A stretch of 64,000 nt of DNA from Hexactinellida sp. DTS-2022 (taxonomy: Eukaryota; Porifera; Hexactinellida): contig JAPNXP010000010.1 of assembly GCA_028753945.1 (NCBI GenBank), forward strand, positions 5,583,042 to 5,647,041, in the 5' to 3' direction. Under the pieces are notes generated by a model, which worked only from the letters and a program-made list of their open reading frames with translations, was not told where the DNA came from and ran no database searches. Position 1 is the first letter of the stretch; every line of letters starts with the position of its first letter. Of this stretch, positions 3,527 through 46,715 are shown one piece after another. Position numbers and translations under genes: made by a program.

Positions 3527-4792
3527 CTAAAAGAATTGCAGACAAGCAGTATCCTTATGACACACAACTACAATCTGTCCTGTGTTGTCTAGCACTATTC
3601 CCCACGGGTTAATGAACTCCCCAATACCCTGACCATTCTTTCCAATCCTGTGTATCTCTTCTCCCTCCTGATTGAATACACACACACAGTGATTACCGTA
3701 GTCACTCATAATTATGTTGTATTCTCTGTCTATGTCGAAACAGTATGGATTGTTTGTTTGCTTACCATTGCCACGAGTTATCAGTCTGTTGGTTAGAACG
3801 TGATTTGTATCGAACACAAACATACACGGATCACTTTGGTCTAGCACCAATACTCTGTCTCGTGTAACCTTAATATCAAGTGGACAGTTAAACACACCTA
3901 TTCCTAGCATGGAATGGAACTTGAGATCCTCTGTGAAGATTTGGACTCTGTTATTGCTGCTATCACAGACATAGACATCGTTAGTTCTGTCAGAGACAGC
4001 CAGACCGATTGGACAGTTGAACTGAGCTTCTCCACTCCCTTTGCTACCAACACTCTTGATTAGTTTGCCTTCTAGCTCGTACATACTAATACAATGACCA
4101 CTGTATTGTGTAACTAGCACGCTATTATGAGTTATACAGATACCCAATGGACCATTCATCTTCTCACTGAACATGAAGAGATAGTCTCCGTTACAGGTAA
4201 ATACCTGTACTCGATGGTTGTACTCATCCGCTATGTAAATGTGTCCAGTCTTGTAATGCACTGCTATGCCTCTGGGCCAGTTGAATTCTCCAGGAGCTTT
4301 CTGTTCGCTAGACTTCTTGCAGCAGTAGGCAGTAGGCAGCCGTTTAGCCTTGTAGTCCGGTACAACAGGCTTCACTTGGGGAGAGAAGGTGCGGGTGGGA
4401 GATACGTTAGTCTGACCCTTAAGCTTAATACTCCCTAGCTGTTCAATGTCAGTCTCGAATAGACTGTCCCACTCGAACTCAATTCTACCGTCTATATCAG
4501 CTGTTAGCTCTGCTATCTTGTTGTCAATTGTAGAACGAATTATTTCAAAGGTAGTTTGATGTTCGTTATCAGTGAGGGTATCTGAGCTAACACTTTTTAT
4601 TTTATTCAAATCTTCGACTAATTTATTCATTTTTTGAGTTTTGCTATTGTGCTCTGTCTCTATGCGATCAACTCTAGAGAGGAGGCTACTCTCCCTAACG
4701 CGTAGAGCTTCATGAGACCTCTTGAAGCTTTCTTGTATCTTCTTTCGGGTCTCTTTTATTTGTTCGGGGAAATTCTTCTGTAAACTGGCCAT
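3527..4792 (-). CDS. Coiled-coil/NHL-repeat protein (TRIM2/3-like C-terminal half), copy A
   Basis: Single-exon, 421 residues. Residues 1-115 are a charged coiled coil (EQIKETRKKIQESFKRSHEALRVRESSLLSRVD). A linker ends with YCCKKSSEQKAPGE. From about residue 165 come about six NHL blades, with repeated patterns such as PRGIAVHYKTGHIYIADEYNHRVQVF, GLAVSDRTNDVYVCDSSNNRVQIF and PWGIVLDNTGQIVVVC. NHL propellers bind protein or RNA. There is no RING or B-box, so this is not a full TRIM ligase. A near-identical copy lies at 42555-43820 on the other strand. The two differ mainly in part of the coiled coil and at some blade positions. Confidence 0.88.
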   Translation of the reverse strand: MASLQKNFPEQIKETRKKIQESFKRSHEALRVRESSLLSRVDRIETEHNSKTQKMNKLVEDLNKIKSVSSDTLTDNEHQTTFEIIRSTIDNKIAELTADIDGRIEFEWDSLFETDIEQLGSIKLKGQTNVSPTRTFSPQVKPVVPDYKAKRLPTAYCCKKSSEQKAPGEFNWPRGIAVHYKTGHIYIADEYNHRVQVFTCNGDYLFMFSEKMNGPLGICITHNSVLVTQYSGHCISMYELEGKLIKSVGSKGSGEAQFNCPIGLAVSDRTNDVYVCDSSNNRVQIFTEDLKFHSMLGIGVFNCPLDIKVTRDRVLVLDQSDPCMFVFDTNHVLTNRLITRGNGKQTNNPYCFDIDREYNIIMSDYGNHCVCVFNQEGEEIHRIGKNGQGIGEFINPWGIVLDNTGQIVVVCHKDTACLQFF

Positions 4793-34987: not shown

Positions 34988-37900
34988 CTATTTTTGTGCC
35001 TGCTTAGTGAAATGTGGCTGCACAATCGAAGGCGGTCTAGGTGGAGGCACATGTCCAGTCTTAAGTGAAAGAACACGAATTTCGCGATTTAACCCTTCTA
35101 TTTGTACAGCTTGCATTTTAACTAGATTAGCTATTTCTGCATTGTCAGAGGTTAAATGCGATTCTGGGCTTTGGAATTCAGAGCCAAGTTGTTTCTCTCC
35201 AGTTTCTAGTTTTGATCCATTTTCACTCATTTTTCCTAACAATTGAGTTAGCGACCTGAGTTTGCGAGTATTTAGCTGTAAAACTTCATCCAAAATATTT
35301 TTTTTCTGCTCTATTTCTTCTTGTTTCGCGGTTAATTCGTGTCTCGCTTGTTTTTCAAATAACGCGATTTGTTCATGAAGTTCTAGAACATTCTTTGGAG
35401 GTTCAACTGGGTCGAAAAAATCTAAATCTACTTTACGTCCGAATTTAAGCATCATAATCTCATCAACTTGATTTTCTAGGTCTTGTACTCGGGCGACCAT
35501 TGTCTTTTTATCGTTTGTTAAGCGGAGTTTCTTACTTTCCAATTCTTTCCTTTGCCTTCTAAGGTCGATTTGTTCCTCGCGAATTTCGCCAGCGCGAGAA
35601 TTGAGTCTGTTGAGATTTCGTTCTGAAAATACCAAAGCGGTATTAAGGTTGTTAGGTGGATCTGAGTTTGGCTTTGCAATTAGAATCTGCGAAATTCGCA
35701 GTAACACTAAAACTTCCAATTCATTCAGTCTGTGTTGTTTCTCCAGCTGGAAATTCTCAAGATCAGATTTGGCGTTTTTCACAGCATTGTCCATAACCTT
35801 AGCTTTCTTAACAGAATTATCAGAATCCTTTTTCAACAAATCGAGAGATTTCTTATCTTCATTCAACAGTTCTTCCACATCCATTCGACTTTCCCTCATT
35901 TCACAAGCTTTCTCAAACAAATGCATTTGACAGCCAGACGGACATGTACTGTCATCGAATATTTTCTCTTTAATATCCTCAGAACCTTCTTCGCTTGAAA
36001 TGTCAGATTCCAAATCTGAGTCGGATTGTTCGTCAGAGCTCTCTCCTTCGTCCTTCTTTTCGACTTGTTTAATGCGCTTTATTTTCTTCTTAAATACACG
36101 TAGGAGAAATTCTGCGAATTTATTATTCGCGATTTCCTTTTGAAAGTCTTCTTCTAGTTCTTTCATATTGTCTTGTGAATGGTGTACGAGATTCTGTCTG
36201 TTCTCAATTTGTTCTTTGAGTTTATTCAACTTTTCCTGCATTTCCAATCTGTCTCTCTGTTTCTCTTTCAGTTTGCTTATAAAACTCTGTTCGCGTTTTT
36301 CGAAGTCTTTCAAGAGAAGATATTCCTCGAATAACAGAATATGTTTCAAATCAGAAAGCTTTATTTGTGTATCAAGTATTGTTTTGAAATTAGAAAGAAA
36401 ACTAACTTTGGAATCAAAATCCCTTTTCGAAGTCTCAATCTCTCTCAACAGAGAATCGCGTTCATACCGTAACCGCATTACCATCTCATTATACAGCACC
36501 AATTCACCCGGAGTTCGCATGTTTTTCCTACCACTAACATCTTCTAAATCATCAGTTATATCCGCTATGGATCCCATTTCGCTGCCCTGGCCCTCAGAAC
36601 AAGATTCCAGATCCTCATCGTCTCTATCAGTGGCGGCACCAAACCCGCCGAACCCTCCGAACTCATCGCCAGCCTGTTTAGCTTTGGCTCTAGCTTCCAA
36701 CTTCTTCTGATAACCCTTCTCAAAACTAAGCAGATCTGTCTCAGTTAGCTCGAGTAGACTCTCGGGTATTTCCTCGGGCCGTAGCACTGGTAGCTTGGGA
36801 GGAGGGATAAGTTCGTCTTTTGGGAGGAAAGCTTGTATTTCCTTCAATCGAGAGAGACAAGAAGCAAACCTGTTTATAAGCCCCACCTTCTCATCTCGCA
36901 GTTCTATAACTTTACTATTAAATAAATCGGAACCGAATTGTATTGCTTGTCTCAGTAGCACTAATTGCATTCTTTTCTTAGTCGCATTCATTCTAAGTTC
37001 CTCTGGCACCGTATAATCATCCGATGTTTTCAGTTTGAAATCTCCCATATTAGTTTCCGCATCAAATAACAGTGCAATATCCTCCGGGTGTTGATAGCCA
37101 TCCATTGGTTTTTCACTCGCCAGCTGAGACCATTCATTCACTCTCTTTTTCCTCTGAAAACGACGTAACTCGCCCTTACTCATTTTCTCTAAATCGGCCT
37201 CATGTTTTATAGATACCTTCTTTGATACTGGTGTGGATTTATCTTCAAACACGTGTAGATTTGAGCTCGGCAACATTCTACTGCTGTAGCGAAGTGACTC
37301 GCTTGTCACAGCTCTTACGTCACTCAACAGCTCATCGTCTCTGGGTGTACGCTTCAAACAACGGAGTGTCCGTGTCATGACGTCATCGGAACTGAAACTG
37401 TACACTACAATGCTGTCACACTGCAGTTGTACTTTGTACCGAGTGAATAACTTCGAATAACCAATGTCGTATTTCTCGCGTAGCCATTGTTGCTGTAATT
37501 CTACTATTTTAAGATTCTCAATTGTTTCTCTATTGAAATCTTCCGCTGCTTGTTTGTCCATAATAAAATCATTTGCTGGGATCTGTATATGGGACGGGAG
37601 ATTAGTGTTGTGTGTTTGGAACTGTTTGAATTGCTTTCTGAGTCGATTGACTTGAGCCAGCACCTGTTTCTTCTGCTCTTCGGCTAGCTTTAGCTTTCTA
37701 TCATTCTCGGCTCGCTGTCTCGCCTCCTCGAGAGAATAGTGCTTTGGATCTTCGATATCTTTCGCGGGAGTTATATCTATGTCAGCTGAACTTTCCGTTT
37801 CCTGTTGATGCTGACTAGACGCATTCCTATCCTCCAATTTGAATGAGAAGAAATTCCCATCTTGAGTAGTAGCGAGTATAAACTGGTCATCGTACGTAGT

Positions 37901-40863
37901 GCAAACTCTATTAACCTTACTGTCCGGATCTCCCATTGGTATAGCCCAGAACTGGTCCAATGAGAGATTACCGTTAACATTAACCTTATGCACTTGTATC
38001 TGACCATTGCTTGTTCCTACCAAGATATGCTCCTTATCTTGTGTGTAGCTAAGTGACGTAATAGGCTGGATATTCCCGAATATCAGTGGTACCGGCATAA
38101 GTTTGAGAGGGCGGTCCCCTTCAGGATCTGGTCCCTCTGAACTGATCCAACATTCGTATATAAACTCACAGTCATATGAGTCCATGCAAAGCCAGAAATT
38201 ACTGGAGCGCCCATGGTAGAATGCGTGTAGAATGGGAGATGGGATTTCAGGGGGTGTGGGTATATCCGCGTATGGATCTAAATCTGTATCCTGTTCATGA
38301 GTGGTGAGAGAATGAGTAGATTGTTGGTCCTCCTCCTGTTTCAGTTTCTCAGCTCGCTCTGCTTCCAGTTCTGTGTCCCTCGCGGCTTTTAACATGTCAT
38401 ACTTGACACTTCTGAATCTGAATATCTGATGCGACACACGGGTCAGCTGATAGCTCTTGCTAATGTCGAACTCTCCTCTCAGTGGCACTGAGATTAGCAG
38501 ACAAGAAGCATTCTTTAGCGAAGCGAGGACTGTAAAGCGATCCGTAACGCTATTCGGAGCCCAAGCTAGGTTGACAACGGGAGAGGCAACTGGCATGTAG
38601 CCTAGCGGAATAAAGGTCTCATCTTTAGAACCTTCCACTCCTTTCATCATAAAGAATATACTGTCTTCTGCTGCTGAAATTAGGTTCAAATTAGAGCTAC
38701 TGTTTCCTAACAGGATGGCTGTTAGTGGCTTAGAGTGTGGCTTTAAAACCTGTTTTAGAGTAAAACTAGAGTCTTCACCTATCTCTTGAGTAGAATTAGG
38801 AGATTGTCCGTCCTCATCTGTTATATGCAGTAGCCGTATTATACCATCAGCGAACCCAGCTATAACAGACAGACCGGATGAATCGAACCAACACGGACAC
38901 CACACCACACAAGTTGCCGGCATATTGAATGTGGTTCTACCGAGGAACTTCTTACTCTCCACACAGTACAGTCTAACTCTACCGTCTACACCACACGTAA
39001 CTGCATGCAGCGAATTCCAGCTCGCATCCAGCCCGCTTATAGCGCCTGAATGGAATGTATACAAACGCTCTGGCGGTTTATGTGTGTGACTTACCTGTAA
39101 GTCAACACGCCAAATGGACCCCTTATTATCCTGTACTACCCAGTAACTGGGTGTGTCCGGGTGGTTTAGCTTTGCCAGGTGTCTAACACTTGCCCCTGTA
39201 CGTGTTGCAAGCTTAACTTCCTGTAAAGGCATTATCTCTATAAGGTCATTGTCATCTATGACATCAGCTTGATCGATTTGTTCGAAATCCCAAATACGGA
39301 TTATACCGTCCGTACCGCCAGTTATTATCTCGCCTTCGTCAAGAAATACGAATTCGATATTACCGATATGACACGGCTTTTGTCCCTTACGGCACAGCTC
39401 TACCTTAACTAGGTCGCCCTCCCATAGCAATAGGTTGCCCCATTCAGTTCCACTCAGTACCTTACCGTCAGGGAATTCCGCATACCCACTCACGTCCGAT
39501 ATTTCTCTCTTCCCGAACTTACCGATATCTCCCTGTAGTTTCAATCCTGTGAAAGTAGTCGCCATTTTCCAGAAGCGAATATGTCCTATTCCGCTAGAGG
39601 TCAGGATGCCATCATTCTCTGAGGAAAATGTAACTCTATAGAAATATAGAGTTTTATGAACTAAGTACTTTGGTGTTTGTTCGGAACAGATAATCTCAAT
39701 GTAATTATTTGATAAATTGGTAATTGCATGAAATAATGTAAACTAACTAACTAACTAACTAAATAACTAACTTACTAAATAAATAAATAAGCCAAATATA
39801 CTAAAGTGAACTCCCGTTATAACCAAGTCGGATATAACGAAATGGAGTTTGTCCCCCTGAACACTAAATGCATTTATTATTATCCGCTTATAACGAATAT
39901 CCGGATATAACAAATGAATTTACAGGTCCAAAGCACTTCGTTATACCGAGAATTGACTGTAATACAATACAGTCAACTCTCGTTATAACTTGGGACCTGT
40001 GAATTCTTTATAAGCGGAGAATAATTAATAAAGCATTTAGTAATCTGTTGGAAAATATCCATTTCGTTATATCCGACTTCGTTATAATGTGAGTTAATTG
40101 TATAAATTATTTGATATGGTACCAATTCAATAATAGCCCAAGGTCAATTGGTGTCGTACTAACGAGGTTCTACTGTATAAAGAATCCCAATATAATACAG
40201 TAGATGTAGGATATAAGAACACCGGTTATAAGCACATTAAGTGCAGTTCCCGACTATGTGCATATAACCGGCATCCACTGTAATATAATAATACAATACA
40301 CACACACAGTACCTGAATATGTCCTGGGAGAAAGCTTTAGTCCTCAGCACGATCGCCTCCTGTTTCCAGTCCCAGACAGTAAGCATGAAGTCCGGACTGC
40401 CCCCCACAGAGGCTATCTTCAGTCCCTCTCCCGACGAGAAGGTTAGTTGCGCGTAAGCCGCCTCAGTCCCGCATCGCAACACGCGGTAGAGTAATAGCGA
40501 GGGGTACGTGAATATGTTTATATCCGGGAGCCGTCCTTTCTCCGCCACGGCTATATACTGTCTAGACGGGTGTACGGCGAGTGAGCCAATCCCGAGACCA
40601 CTTGATGAGCGGAGATACGTGAGATCTCCAGTGGATAGGGTCAAGAAGTGAACCAGGTTACCGCTGATATACATAACAGTGTCATAGTCGAGTACGTATA
40701 GGTTACAGCGACGGAGTAGATCGTATCCGAATGAATGGTGCAGGGAGAGAAGTGTAGGGGACAGCTTATGAGAAGCCGGAGCGCTGACAAGAGTGGAGTA
40801 GTCGTACTCTGTCGGATGGAAAGGTTCTGGGGGTTCTAACTGAGCTGTGTCGGTCTGAGACAT
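34988..40863 (-). CDS. CFAP44: Cilia- and flagella-associated protein 44 (2 exons)
   Basis: Exon 1 is 40863-40313 and exon 2 is 39635-34988, joined at CATATTCAG|GTACTG and TTTCTATAG|AGTTAC (phase 2, giving FRVTFSSENDGILTSSGIGHIRFWKMA-type WD sequence). Total 1,732 residues (human 1,854). The N-terminal half has WD40 repeats (GTEWGNLLLWEGD, TGGTDGIIRIWDFEQ, VDGRVRLYCVESKKFLGR). The C-terminal half is long coiled coil (about residues 850-1700) with an acidic spacer (DEGESSDEQSDSDLESD). CFAP44 works with CFAP43 in tethering inner dynein arm f to the axoneme. A 4.6-kb uninterrupted second exon is striking beside the 17-exon IFT172. A MITE ends 17 bp upstream of the start codon. Confidence 0.95.
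39804..40100. mobile_element. Two pogo-type MITEs in the CFAP44 intron
   Basis: One at about 39804-39959 (AGTGAACTCCCGTTATAACC... ACCGAGAATTGACTG) and one at 39970-40100 (CAGTCAACTCTCGTTATAAC... ATAATGTGAGTTAATTG), with TA flanks. A short TAAGAACACCGG-family copy follows at 40197-40281. Confidence 0.75.
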
Positions 40864-41338: not shown

Positions 41339-41561
41339 GTGGTCAGGCCACGGTTTGACCGCTTCCGCCTCCCCTGAAAGTGTTAGCACTATCTCAGAGG
41401 TTCAAGAAGTACTATTCGTAGAAGAAATCAATCGGTGGAATGGGATTGTGCCGTATCTCAGGGTGCCGCTTTGGGAGGTTTACTAACGAAATATTTACCT
41501 CTGAATTGAGTAAAAAATCTAAAATTATAGCTGTGCCAAAAGATTTGACATAAACCTACTA

Positions 41562-41665
41562 CAGTAGAACCTCGTTAATACGAACACCAACGGACGGTAA
41601 AAATGTGTTCGCTTTATCCGGAGTTCGTATTAACCGGAGTAATACCCATTGAATAGCCTTGTCCT
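41562..41665. mobile_element. Pogo-type MITE, left half
   Basis: CAGTAGAACCTCGTTAATAC, CAACGGACGGTAAAAATG and CCGGAGTTCGTATTAACCGG are present; the right half is missing. Complete relatives at 44330 and 50267. Confidence 0.65.
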
Positions 41666-41811
41666 CCTTATATTATATGTACGAAAACTTATACTAAAAT
41701 AGAGACTAGGTTATAACTTCTCAGCTGGTTTTCCGAGATTTGGGAATTTCCAATCAAAATTTTGGACATCGGTTTATCTAATACTAGACTGGGCTATTTT
41801 ACTTTTACATG

Positions 41812-42033
41812 TGTAGTATCGGGGCCGGTAGTAGTCAGGGACTACTATACCGGCAGGAGGCACGAGTGGTCGTAATGGAGACACCGTGGCGATAAGCGTG
41901 ACTACCCACAGGCGTGAGTGGAGTCATGGGGTCGAGGGTCACCCTCCTGATGAGTTCCTGCAATGGAACGAAACCCCACTAGTCAACCTTGTTGGCTAGG
42001 CTACAGATCATAGTTGATAACAACGTTATTACA
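41812..42033 (+). repeat. Left LTR of the retrozyme-like element
   Basis: 222 bp, TG...CA. Near its start is a strong hairpin (GCCGGTAGTAGTC facing GACTACTATACCGGC, about 41821-41853). The hammerhead lies at 41927-41978. Confidence 0.88.
41927..41978 (+). ncRNA. Type III hammerhead ribozyme, left LTR
   Basis: Order of parts: stem III 5' strand TGGGG (41927-41931); cleavage triplet GTC, expected cut after 41933; stem I GAGGG-TCA-CCCTC (41934-41946); conserved CTGATGAG (41947-41954); stem II TTCC-TGCAAT-GGAA, extended by a G-C pair; conserved CGAAA (41969-41973); stem III 3' strand CCCCA (41974-41978). All invariant core bases are present. Stem I is short with a 3-nt loop, so activity may be modest. 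Fold read by eye. Confidence 0.85.
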
Positions 42034-42052
42034 TTGGCGACGAAGGTGGGAT
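42034..42052 (+). promoter_or_regulatory. Primer-binding site, tRNA-Ser-like
   Basis: TTGGCGACGAAGGTGGGAT directly follows the left LTR. From TGGCGACGA onward it is complementary to the CCA-tailed 3' end of eukaryotic tRNA-Ser(GCU), with about two mismatches in 18. This would prime minus-strand synthesis. Confidence 0.75.
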
Positions 42053-42165
42053 CTGTAGGATACCATGGAAGGATACAATAAGAATGTATGGCTTCCATGT
42101 CTGCCTGTGGCTAACAGCAAAAGCCTCAGGTGGGTGCACTCACTCTGGTTCGCTATCGGGACCAC

Positions 42166-42182
42166 GGATAAGGTGAGAGGAG
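42166..42182 (+). promoter_or_regulatory. Polypurine tract
   Basis: GGATAAGGTGAGAGGAG directly abuts the right LTR. It is purine-rich with two T interruptions and sits where plus-strand priming occurs in LTR elements. Confidence 0.6.
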
Positions 42183-42405
42183 TGTAGTATCGGGGCCGGT
42201 AGTAGTCAGGGACTACTATACCGGCAGGAGGCACGAGTGGTCGTAATGGAGACACCGTGGCAATAAGCGTGACTACCCACTAGACGTGAGTGGAGTCATG
42301 GGGTCGAGGGTCACCCTCCTGATGAGTTCCTGCAATGGAACGAAACCCCACTAGTCAACCTTGTTGGCTAGGCTACAGATCATAGTTGATAACAACGTTA
42401 TTACA
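42183..42405 (+). repeat. Right LTR of the retrozyme-like element
   Basis: 223 bp, TG...CA, nearly identical to the left LTR, followed by the ACATG target duplication. Confidence 0.88.
42299..42350 (+). ncRNA. Type III hammerhead ribozyme, right LTR
   Basis: Same core as the left copy with no change: TGGGGTC, CTGATGAG at 42319-42326, CGAAA at 42341-42345 and CCCCA at 42346-42350. The expected cut after 42305 is 372 nt from the left cut, so a full transcript would release a 372-nt RNA that could be circularised. Confidence 0.85.
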
Positions 42406-42554
42406 ACATGGTTTACATAAACTAATAAATTAGGAAATAGATAGAGATAATAATATAATTCCTGAGGTACTCGTGTAACTTGACTCCATAAATATAGTAT
42501 AAATTATAAAACATATAACTAGTCCTAAATTCATACGAAATACAATTCTATTAA

Positions 42555-43820
42555 ATGGCCAGCTTACAAAACAATAATTTCCCCGAACAAATAAAAGAGA
42601 CCCGAAAGAAGATACAAGACAGCTTCAAGAAGTCTCATGAAGCTCTACGCGTTAGGGAGAGTAGCCTCCTCTCTAGAGTTGATCGCATAGAGACAGAGCA
42701 CAATAGCAAAACTCAGGAAATTAATGAGTTAGTGGAAACTCTGAATAGCATTAAAACTATCTCAAACACACTCAAATCTAATAAAGTAACAGACACACGC
42801 GAAGGAGTAACCGCGCTAGTTAACCAAAAGATAGCAGAGCTAACAGCTGATATAGACAGTAGCATTGAGTTCGAGTGGGACAGTCTATTCGAGACTGACA
42901 TTGAACAGCTAGGGAGTATTAAGCTTAACGGTCAGACTAACGTATCTCCCACCCGCACCTTCTCTCCCCAAGTGAAGCCTGTTGTACCGGACTACAAGGC
43001 TAAACGGCTGCCTACTGCCTACTGCTGCAAGAAGTCTAGCGAACAGAAAGCTCCTGGAGAATTGTATAGTCTCAGAGGCATAGCAGTGCATTACAAGACT
43101 GGACACATTTACATAGCGGATTCCAGCAACCATCGAGTACAGGTATTTACCTGTAACGGAGACTATCTCTTCATGTTCAGTGAGAAGATGAATCATCCAG
43201 TGGGTATCTGTATAACTCGTAATAGAGTGCTAGTTACACAATGGAATGGTCATTGTATTAATATGTACGAGCTAGAAGGCAAACTAATCAAGAGTGTTGG
43301 TAGCAATGGGAGTGGAGAAGCTCAGTTCAACTGTCCAATCGGTCTGGCTGTCTCTGATAGAACTAACGATGTCTATGTTTGTGATTGTAGCAATAACAGA
43401 GTCCAAATCTTCACAGAGGATCTCAAGTTCCATTCCATGCTAGGAATAGGTGTGTTTAACCAACCACGTGATATTAAGGTTACACGAGACAGAGTATTGG
43501 TGCTAGATACTAGTGATCCGTGTATGTTTGTGTTCGATTCAAATCACGTTCTAACCAACAGGCTGATAACTCGTGGCAATGGTAAGCAAACAAACAATCC
43601 ATACTGTTTCGACATAGACAGAGAATACAACATCATTATGAGTGACTACGGTAATCACTGTGTGTGTGTATTCAGTCAGGAGGGAGAAGAGATACACAGG
43701 ATTGGGAAGAATGGTCAGGGTATTGGGGAGTTCATTAAGCCGTATGGAATAGTGCTAGACAACACAGGACGGATTGTAGTTGTGTGTCAGAAGGAAACTG
43801 CTTGTCTGCAATTCTTTTAA
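42555..43820 (+). CDS. Coiled-coil/NHL-repeat protein, copy B
   Basis: Single exon, 421 residues. Organisation as in the 3527-4792 copy: coiled coil (about 1-115), then linker FSPQVKPVVPDYKAKRLPTA, shared exactly, then about six NHL blades (LRGIAVHYKTGHIYIADSSNHRVQVF, GLAVSDRTNDVYVCDCSNNRVQIF, PYGIVLDNTGRIVVVC). Most differences from copy A are in the coiled coil (about residues 65-95) and at loop positions of the blades. The gene starts 150 bp right of the retrozyme-like element. No RING/B-box; function unknown. Confidence 0.88.
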   Translation: MASLQNNNFPEQIKETRKKIQDSFKKSHEALRVRESSLLSRVDRIETEHNSKTQEINELVETLNSIKTISNTLKSNKVTDTREGVTALVNQKIAELTADIDSSIEFEWDSLFETDIEQLGSIKLNGQTNVSPTRTFSPQVKPVVPDYKAKRLPTAYCCKKSSEQKAPGELYSLRGIAVHYKTGHIYIADSSNHRVQVFTCNGDYLFMFSEKMNHPVGICITRNRVLVTQWNGHCINMYELEGKLIKSVGSNGSGEAQFNCPIGLAVSDRTNDVYVCDCSNNRVQIFTEDLKFHSMLGIGVFNQPRDIKVTRDRVLVLDTSDPCMFVFDSNHVLTNRLITRGNGKQTNNPYCFDIDREYNIIMSDYGNHCVCVFSQEGEEIHRIGKNGQGIGEFIKPYGIVLDNTGRIVVVCQKETACLQFF

Positions 43821-44329: not shown

Positions 44330-44498
44330 TCGTTATAAATACGAACACCAACGGACGGACGGTAAAAATTTTGTTCGCTTTATCCGGAGTTCGTATTAAC
44401 CGAGTAATACCCAATGTAGGGACTTGATTTTGTGGATCTGTTTGTTCGTCTTATCCGGAAATTCCTATTAAATGTATCGTACTAACGAAGTTATACTG
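44330..44498. mobile_element. Pogo-type MITE abutting the DHX15-like gene
   Basis: CAGTGGAACTTCGTTATAAA at the left and CGTACTAACGAAGTTATACTG-TA at the right. It supplies an upstream in-frame ATG (44472) for the helicase frame. Confidence 0.8.
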
Positions 44499-44513
44499 TA
44501 TATTATAATTAGT

Positions 44514-46715
44514 ATGGCTAGATCTAGCTACTACACAAACTACTCATCTGAAGAAGATGATTATCTGATATATTCCAGAGAAATAACTCCCTCTGCTAAG
44601 CTACAAAATAACTCTATTTACGCATGGGGCAAACCCCCTAAGCACTGCACTAATTATAAAATGCTTTCTAAACGTAAGCTCCTGCCTATTTGGCAGTATA
44701 AGGACCATATACTTAAAATGATATGGAATTCCCAAGTAATTATATTTGATGGGGAAACAGGTTCGGGTAAGAGTACACAGATACCACAGTGGTGCTTAGG
44801 AATGCCAGGTGTTGAGTATGTAGTGTGTGTACAGCCGCGGAGAATAGCCGCGATTAGTTTAGCGCAGCGAGTAGCTCTGGAAATGGGTGTTAAGCTAGGC
44901 GAGGAAGTGGGGTATGCAGTAAGGTTCGACCATTGTGCAGGGCCTAAAACACTGTTAAAATACGTGACCGATGGTATTCTATTGCGACATGCGATGGTAG
45001 ATAGAAAGCTAACAGATTATGACGTCATTATATTAGACGAGGTTCATGAACGTCGTGTTGTTTCTGATATTCTTCTAGGCGTAGTAAAGGATTTATTGCT
45101 TGTTAGACCGGATATTAGAATTGTTATTATGAGCGCAACACTTAATGTTAAACAGTTCTGTGATTATTTCAACCATTGCCCTTATATGCATATTCCAGGC
45201 AAATTGTATCCCATAGAAATATGCTATCAACCTAGGGTGATTCAACGTGGAATATTCACTGATTTCGAAAGGCGAAAATTTCAACCGTTTGTGTTCGATG
45301 CGATTAATGTTATAATGGATATCTGTGTTATGGAGAAGAGATTGGGAGATATACTCGTGTTCGTGACAGGGAGAGATGAAATAGATTTCATTTGTAGAGC
45401 AATTAATGACATGCGAGAGGATTACATTGATAGCTTGAGGGCAATTGATATGATCCCGTTATACGCTGATCTTCCTTACTCAAGCCAGCAACGTATATTC
45501 GGTCCCTCCCCAAAATCATCTATAGGCCGTATAGGTAGGAAATGTATTGTAGCGACTAATATAGCAGAATCATCAATAACAATAGAAGGAATAGTTTTTG
45601 TTGTTGATTCAGGGAAAGTTAAGCTATCAAACTTAGTCGGTGTTCATCTGAAATCTTTATTGCCGGTTGACATTTCCCAATCGAGTGCCCAACAGAGATC
45701 TGGTCGCGCTGGAAGAACTAAACCTGGGAAATGCTACAGACTCTATTCAGAGTCTAGTTTCTTAAAGCTAGACAAGCACACTATACCGGAGATATTACGC
45801 TGCGACTTATCAAGTGTATTCCTGCATCTTAAGACAATGGGTGTAGACTTAATTCGGTTTGAAACAATAGACCAACCTACACCAGATGCACTAGATAAAG
45901 CCATACTAAACCTACAGCAATTGGGGGCACTCAATTACCATTACGAAGTCACTGCCATTGGTGCGCAAATGTCTAAATTCCCATTAGAAGTTGACATAGC
46001 TAGAATGCTAGTTGCCAGCAGGGAATACAGGTGTCAACAGGATATAGTCACGCTCGCAGCTGTGCTAAGCTGTGACAGACCAGGGGGGGTGTTTGTTATC
46101 GAAAAGGAAGAAAAAACGAAAGCGGATATCGCGAAAGCGAATTTATCTCATCCATCAGGAGACCATTTGACGTATATTAATGTGTACAATACATTTATGC
46201 GTAGTTTGGATATGGCAGAATGGTGTTACGATAACTTCATTAACTACAATCTTATGATGGACGCAATATCGATTAGGGAGCAGTTAACTTATATAATGTA
46301 TGAGCTCTATTTAATGCGACCTTATAGAGGTAGGTTTCCTATTGAACTTGGCAATACTGAGAATATCTTAAAAGCTGTATTAACTGGTATTTATGGTAAT
46401 ATTGCTAGAAACGATTCATTGGGGAAGAAAAGTAGACAACGGTTTACAACTTCTAAAGATAAGCTAAAGGTTACTCTCCATCCTTCTACCACTCTTGATG
46501 CTAGAAACAATGTATACTCTCTCCTCTGCTATAACACGTGTCTTAAAACAAATCCAACACAGAACTTTATATGTGTAGTGTCTTCTATTCAAGAGGAATG
46601 GTTACCAAATTATACTATAGCAAAACCTACATTCGTTCCACCCAACTTAATGGCACCAACTAAAATAGAGAAACGTATTGTCTCAAGGTATAGTGAATGG
46701 ACAAAAAAGACATAA
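44514..46715 (+). CDS. Divergent DHX15/Prp43-like RNA helicase, intronless
   Basis: 733 residues from ATG 44514; an in-frame ATG at 44472 lies inside a MITE and would add 14 residues, so 44514 is preferred. Helicase motifs: I GETGSGKST (about residue 80), Ia QPRRIAA, II DEVH, III MSATLN, V ATNIAESSITIEG, VI QQRSGRAGRT. The C-terminal winged-helix/ratchet/OB region is recognisable (FPLEVDIARMLVAS, WCYDNFINY, LHPSTTLD). The closest family is DHX15 (spliceosome disassembly, ribosome biogenesis). The usual DEAH motif reads DEVH, and the G-patch-facing N-terminus is short. One exon and divergence suggest an old retrocopy or a lineage-specific paralogue. Confidence 0.88.
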   Translation: MARSSYYTNYSSEEDDYLIYSREITPSAKLQNNSIYAWGKPPKHCTNYKMLSKRKLLPIWQYKDHILKMIWNSQVIIFDGETGSGKSTQIPQWCLGMPGVEYVVCVQPRRIAAISLAQRVALEMGVKLGEEVGYAVRFDHCAGPKTLLKYVTDGILLRHAMVDRKLTDYDVIILDEVHERRVVSDILLGVVKDLLLVRPDIRIVIMSATLNVKQFCDYFNHCPYMHIPGKLYPIEICYQPRVIQRGIFTDFERRKFQPFVFDAINVIMDICVMEKRLGDILVFVTGRDEIDFICRAINDMREDYIDSLRAIDMIPLYADLPYSSQQRIFGPSPKSSIGRIGRKCIVATNIAESSITIEGIVFVVDSGKVKLSNLVGVHLKSLLPVDISQSSAQQRSGRAGRTKPGKCYRLYSESSFLKLDKHTIPEILRCDLSSVFLHLKTMGVDLIRFETIDQPTPDALDKAILNLQQLGALNYHYEVTAIGAQMSKFPLEVDIARMLVASREYRCQQDIVTLAAVLSCDRPGGVFVIEKEEKTKADIAKANLSHPSGDHLTYINVYNTFMRSLDMAEWCYDNFINYNLMMDAISIREQLTYIMYELYLMRPYRGRFPIELGNTENILKAVLTGIYGNIARNDSLGKKSRQRFTTSKDKLKVTLHPSTTLDARNNVYSLLCYNTCLKTNPTQNFICVVSSIQEEWLPNYTIAKPTFVPPNLMAPTKIEKRIVSRYSEWTKKT

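Follow-up and report, generated by a model that had tools for sequence, protein, structure and literature searches.

A non-autonomous LTR retrozyme with type III hammerhead ribozymes in the genome of a hexactinellid sponge

Retrozymes have been sorted by host: a review of December 2024 (PMC11722881), in its available text, describes the LTR retrozymes with type III hammerheads as plant elements and animal retrozymes as non-LTR elements with type I hammerheads. The 64,000-nucleotide stretch of sponge DNA analysed here (the window) raises the question of whether this division holds, as it contains a 594-bp LTR element (41812-42405) that a first-pass annotation had read as a plant-style LTR retrozyme in an animal genome. 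We conclude that the element is very probably a non-autonomous LTR retrozyme of a hexactinellid sponge, one that would form circular RNA and be mobilised by a gypsy element through the mechanism proposed below.

The duplication ACATG, the LTRs of 222 and 223 bp, the primer-binding site (PBS), the purine tract and the 149-bp interior all lie where the first-pass annotation had placed them (Table 1). The LTR termini, TGTAG...TTACA, are of the TG...CA type, and the 223-column alignment of the two LTRs has 220 matches, 2 mismatches and a single gap. None of the stop-to-stop frames of at least 250 aa overlaps the interior; the retrozyme is non-coding and non-autonomous, and its interior is too small for a sizeable protein. 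Ribozyme, PBS and polypurine tract (PPT) are all on one strand, so a sense transcript would contain all three. When the joined flanks of the insertion were searched against the genome, no empty site was found; apart from themselves they had just two matches, both weak and confined to the 3' side.

Table 1. Features of the LTR element and its predicted RNA (window positions)
Feature	Position	Strand	Basis
5' target-site duplication ACATG	41807-41811	.	sequence; same insertion also read as L060
5' LTR, 222 bp, TGTAGTATC...AACGTTATTACA	41812-42033	+	sequence comparison
Type III hammerhead in 5' LTR, predicted cut after C41933	41926-41979	+	Rfam RF00008, helices
RNA unit of 372 nt predicted from self-cleavage; as a circle it would join 42305 to 41934	41934-42305	+	inferred from cut distance and fold
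Interior, 149 bp	42034-42182	+	between LTRs
PBS TGGCGACGAAGGTGGGAT, 18-nt complement of tRNA-Ser(GCT) 3' end plus CCA	42035-42052	+	
Polypurine tract AAGGTGAGAGGAG; its six terminal bases, GAGGAG, recur in the C15 gypsy element	42170-42182	+	
3' LTR, 223 bp	42183-42405	+	
Type III hammerhead in 3' LTR, predicted cut after C42305	42298-42351	+	Rfam RF00008
3' target-site duplication ACATG	42406-42410	.	sequence

The genes around the element identify its host. The best named match of the DHX15-like neighbour (44472-46715) is Oopsacas minuta at 64%, ranked below six ENA proteins of 63-88%; CFAP44 (34988-39742) shares 79% identity with its Oopsacas minuta counterpart, and a ribbon worm, at 40%, supplies the next named match. 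Since Oopsacas minuta belongs to the glass sponges (PMC10282587, available text), the host is, on the basis of protein similarity, hexactinellid. On the strength of these neighbours we reject a plant origin or contamination of the window; a plant-derived window was among the outcomes that the first-pass annotation had itself named as fatal to its reading. Two similar 421-aa open frames, read as NHL-repeat proteins, are also present in the window (3527-4792, minus strand; 42555-43820, plus strand), the latter beginning 150 bases past the retrozyme. Positions 41560-41660 belong to a dispersed repeat, about 100 bp long, that has several other copies in the window at 75-92% identity (28898, 18770, 50263 and 44318, for example).

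Each LTR does contain a complete hammerhead, as had been claimed: both copies score 57.9 bits against RF00008 (Hammerhead_3; E 2.9e-10, gathering score 48.5) and are the sole Rfam matches at gathering level within the 64-kb window. Their predicted cuts, after C41933 and C42305, are 372 nt apart. A strict hammerhead pattern 34 places long (ACCCTCCTGATGAGTYCYTNNNATRGRACGAAAC) occurs at 204 exact sites in the genome, distributed over several LTR families, and at none when reversed. The Rfam model search of the genome gave at least 64 matches over the cut-off from the best 68 of 12,319 candidates scored, a list that is far from complete, since the window's own two hammerheads are absent from it. 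The type I hammerhead model had no matches in this genome, nor in the control genomes, which deprives the negative of weight; the hammerhead pattern had none in IMG/VR, a set that says nothing on animals. Several hammerheads at C1:13001772-13359832, all on the minus strand and with equal or close scores, are 35-100 kb apart, a spacing that looks like that of a larger repeated unit.

The window-type hammerhead has a helix I of 5 bp with a triloop and a helix II loop of the form U-GNRA-U (UGNRAU in 32 of 34 distinct rows of a 49-row alignment), and its fold is supported by covariation among the aligned copies. Over the distinct rows 97.2% of cells are paired, a figure inflated by the selection of most of the 49 rows by Rfam score or LTR match and by the finder's demand for at least three pairs per helix. 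The double changes are less affected: they occur at six pairs, helices II and III covary, and 44 doubly changed cells were observed versus 14.9 in shuffles, with none of 500 shuffles as high. Slid-alignment controls were 46-64% paired, and the +3 slide also showed double changes (3 pairs, 20 cells). Helix I lacks double changes because it hardly varies. In a pairing-free test on core contexts (CTGATGAG...CGAAA), all three helices were intact in 47 of 53, a non-random sample in which many loci were chosen by Rfam score; the other six (L013, L014, L015, L021, L023 and L025) failed. At L018 the ribozyme is lost and only the LTR start remains. Most type III hammerheads have a helix I loop of 6-8 nt (PMC7936874, available text); the triloop departs from this, which makes the speed of the ribozyme in vivo uncertain.

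The first-pass annotation had proposed a genome search for the LTR and the hammerhead, and had named a single-copy element without full relatives as an outcome against its reading; the family proved instead to be dispersed and multi-copy. Searched with the whole element, the genome (112.4 Mb, 18 contigs) has at least 46 matching places, from the best 40 of 216 candidates scored. Three copies have two LTRs (the window copy and those on contigs C14, at 98%, and C11, at 92%). A fourth, on C12 (L011), keeps the interior and an exact 5-bp target-site duplication (TSD), its 5' LTR having been cut to 27 bp without a ribozyme. The remaining matches are LTR only, and include solo LTRs with 5-bp duplications. 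Among the fetched loci, a script listed 20 insertions with exact TSDs: 11 of 5 bp, all in families A and B (L009, L010, L011, L013, L014, L017, L019, L026, L027, L028 and the window), and nine of 4 bp, the TSD length of family C. Two of the nine (L035 and L049) were discounted, their lengths of 706 and 488 being unlike those of their family. The same script found no exact TSD at L012, L016, L020, L021, L022, L025 and L033, among others. A separate scan of 50 sites under a 5-bp, one-LTR rule gave 10 candidates, five with family termini (L011, L013, L019, L027 and L028); the five without them were taken as chance.

Beyond families A and B, hammerheads are found in LTRs of other sequence. At most loci retrieved for their ribozyme score (L029-L058), the match to the window LTR is confined to the ribozyme stretch, approximately positions 114-168; the exceptions are L033 and L055, each with an additional A/B copy close by, and L036, whose match takes in the LTR start as well. 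Family C (L017:605-1438, L076, L046 and L047) has a 325-bp LTR with a palindrome across the LTR end in place of a visible tRNA primer site, and could be self-priming. Two of its insertions have empty sites elsewhere in the genome (L044 versus L056, 97.9%; L056 versus L025, 90.8%), with the target bases present once at both. Five family C LTRs, among the matches listed, are 100% identical over their whole length, which indicates that copying was recent.

Some insertions have an unusual layout. At C1:7627723-7629906 (L076, L080) a single 2184-bp insertion with TSD CTAT contains five family C LTRs, 99.7-100% identical, arranged as LTR-interior-LTR, a 35-bp palindrome, and then three inverted LTRs with two interiors. 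This would fit multimeric cDNA; recombination after insertion fits too. Inverted pairs of hammerhead LTRs a few hundred bases apart (L022, L024, L032 and L046) look far commoner than independent insertions would predict. At L010:2002-2610 a chimera joins a subfamily B 5' LTR and 8 bases of an A-type LTR end to a subfamily A PBS, interior and 3' LTR, the whole bounded by one TSD, ACATG. At L067 (C1:9873718 region) the 5' end of the retrozyme falls within the hammerhead, some 10 nt beyond the predicted cut, as it might in a run-off copy of cleaved RNA.

The primer sites tie the elements to tRNA genes of the same genome. CCA is added to tRNAs, and the 18-nt matches given here count it. Over all 18 nt the window PBS agrees exactly with the 3' end of a tRNA-Ser(GCT) gene plus CCA. 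Without TGG, the site (14 nt, CGACGAAGGTGGGA) has seven exact places in 112 Mb, comprising four retrozymes, one tRNA-Ser(GCT) gene and the gypsy-like elements L059 and L065, and none for the reversed pattern. The PBS of the sister subfamily is an 18-nt match to tRNA-Gly(GCC); TGCATTGGCCGGGAA is found at eight places, one a tRNA-Gly(GCC) gene and seven following hammerhead LTRs or LTR parts. At one of these seven, L068, the hammerhead is more distant, and its 39.8 bits fall short of the gathering score.

One of these gypsy-like elements, on contig C15 (L065 and L075), is the candidate partner. Its two 169-bp LTRs are 100% identical, its frames contain RVT_1 (2.7e-21) and RT_RNaseH (4e-35 and 6e-32) domains, and the nearest solved chains are those of Ty3 reverse transcriptase (3.9e-33). 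Its junctions, GAGGAG/TGTAGTA and ...ACGTTATTACA/TTGGCGACGAAGGTGGGAT, are letter for letter those of the window retrozyme. The sharing is limited to the LTR tips, the end of the purine tract and the tRNA-Ser primer site: blastn at E 1 found no similarity between the LTR bodies, and RF00008 had no match in L059 or L065 at E 0.01. No Pfam family matched the L059 piece read as gag-like or the 147-aa frame of L075 read as an integrase tail. The C15 LTR has six matches in the genome. With a TSD that agrees at only 4 of its 5 bases and with interrupted coding frames, this particular C15 copy may not be active. To judge from the matching ends, Ty3/gypsy elements of the C15 type probably mobilise the retrozymes.

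The proposed mechanism is as follows. The LTR would drive transcription of the retrozyme, and the hammerheads in both LTRs would cut after GUC to release a 372-nt unit carrying every signal once. A host ligase would close this unit to a circle, or the linear RNA would serve instead. A tRNA-Ser at the PBS would then prime reverse transcription by a Ty3/gypsy enzyme, and the integrase of the same gypsy element would insert the DNA, generating the 5-bp duplication. The predicted unit has a GC content of 51.6%, versus 38.8% for the window. Its circular fold has an energy of -141.3 kcal/mol (z -5.0 versus 200 dinucleotide shuffles) and pairs 68.8% of the bases, modestly above the 63.2% of the shuffles. 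The minimum-energy fold of the linear form contains helices I and II, and the two RNA ends close helix III; in the circular one the ribozyme is outside its active fold, as is the case for plant retrozyme circles in the available text of PMC4918200. The mechanism is least secure at the passage from circle to DNA, of which the five-LTR insertion on C1 offers a hint.

A rival account, which we consider possible and clearly less probable than the retrozyme mechanism, is that of a TRIM-like element moving by ordinary linear-RNA retrotransposition, its hammerhead being active but serving only to trim transcripts or to release the element from read-through RNA, and no circle acting as template. A near-identical LTR pair with PBS and PPT is the expected outcome of ordinary strand transfer, which can also yield a two-LTR cDNA from linear RNA, and the L010 chimera resembles template switching. 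However, cuts in both LTRs would delete the terminal redundancy needed for strand transfer, unless cutting were incomplete, and the three LTRs in one run within the five-LTR insertion could come from rounds on a circle, or again from later recombination.

That the ribozyme is instead a decayed relic with no present function we consider improbable: helices are broken in some copies, but the high share of intact core contexts, albeit in a non-random sample, the recent copying in family C, the compensatory changes in helices II and III and the presence of the same ribozyme across LTR families otherwise little alike all speak against it, the last two pointing to selection. Very improbable, and the least probable of the three, is foreign DNA, either contamination or a very recent transfer, with a plant, an alga or a symbiont as the source. 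The published LTR retrozymes come from plants only, in the portion of the literature examined, yet this family is dispersed over many contigs beside hexactinellid host genes, and its primer sites and LTR tips match tRNA genes and a gypsy element of the same genome. An old horizontal transfer is possible.

Comparison with known systems places the retrozyme of the preferred reading in its class. Plant LTR retrozymes (PMC4918200, as far as its available text describes them) are likewise non-coding, with a type III hammerhead per LTR, PBS, PPT and TSD, have Ty3/gypsy similarity confined to the LTR ends with PBS and PPT, leave many solo LTRs and have a well-folded predicted unit RNA. According to the same text they differ in primer (tRNA-Met, versus tRNA-Ser or tRNA-Gly in the sponge), TSD (4 bp, versus 5 bp in the window family and 4 bp in family C), LTR length (about 330-350 bp, versus 222 bp) and RNA length (about 600-800 nt, versus a predicted 372 nt). 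Helix I is mostly 6 bp with a 6-8-nt loop in the plant elements for which descriptions were available, versus 5 bp with a triloop here; loop II is 4 nt versus U-GNRA-U, and GC between the ribozymes is above 55% in the plant lineage versus 51.6%. The label plant-style thus holds for the LTR retrozyme design and fails for the primer tRNA, the TSD length and the ribozyme loops.

Metazoan non-LTR retrozymes (PMC7229834, available sections) share the animal host and the small non-coding hammerhead element, and their circles of 170-400 nt span the 372 nt predicted here; they are, however, tandem repeats of low GC with type I hammerheads and no LTR, PBS or PPT, whereas the sponge has type III hammerheads in LTRs, with PBS and PPT. 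The TRIM/SMART-like elements Helenus and Ajax, in the accessible text of PMC10886601, are also small and non-autonomous, with no LTR-body homology to an autonomous element, and unlike the sponge element are without a ribozyme. The type III hammerheads of HDV-like circular RNAs and insect genomes, in the corresponding part of PMC7936874, are animal-linked like those of the sponge, but have a long helix I, an extra hairpin and a loop pseudoknot, and are outside LTRs. We found no description of LTR retrozymes in animals, sponges included, in retrozyme and hammerhead literature that, in the portions available, took in a minority of the subscription papers.

With hammerheads in its LTRs, TSD, PBS and PPT, no coding capacity and gypsy likeness at the tips only, the sponge element belongs to the LTR retrozymes, and the first-pass claim of an animal member of that class, in a host whose genes are closest to those of the glass sponge Oopsacas minuta, is upheld. 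It represents an animal lineage of LTR retrozymes, set apart from those of plants by its primer tRNA, the length of its TSD and the loops of its ribozyme. On a larger reading, for and against which we find the case evenly balanced, glass sponges would have their own LTR-retrozyme radiation, independent of plants: several LTR families, a single and distinctly built hammerhead moving between them (helix I with a triloop, loop II of U-GNRA-U), primers that are tRNA-Ser, tRNA-Gly or perhaps a self-priming hairpin, different integrases (5-bp and 4-bp TSDs), and multimeric insertions recording rolling-circle reverse transcription.

The sponge LTR retrozymes break the split in which plants have the LTR/type III form and animals the non-LTR/type I form. 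Either the design has two separate origins, or it is much older, or more mobile, than had been supposed. With a matching-ended gypsy element in the same genome, trans-mobilisation of the retrozyme is directly testable, and sponge retrozymes offer a new place to seek viroid-like RNA circles in animals.
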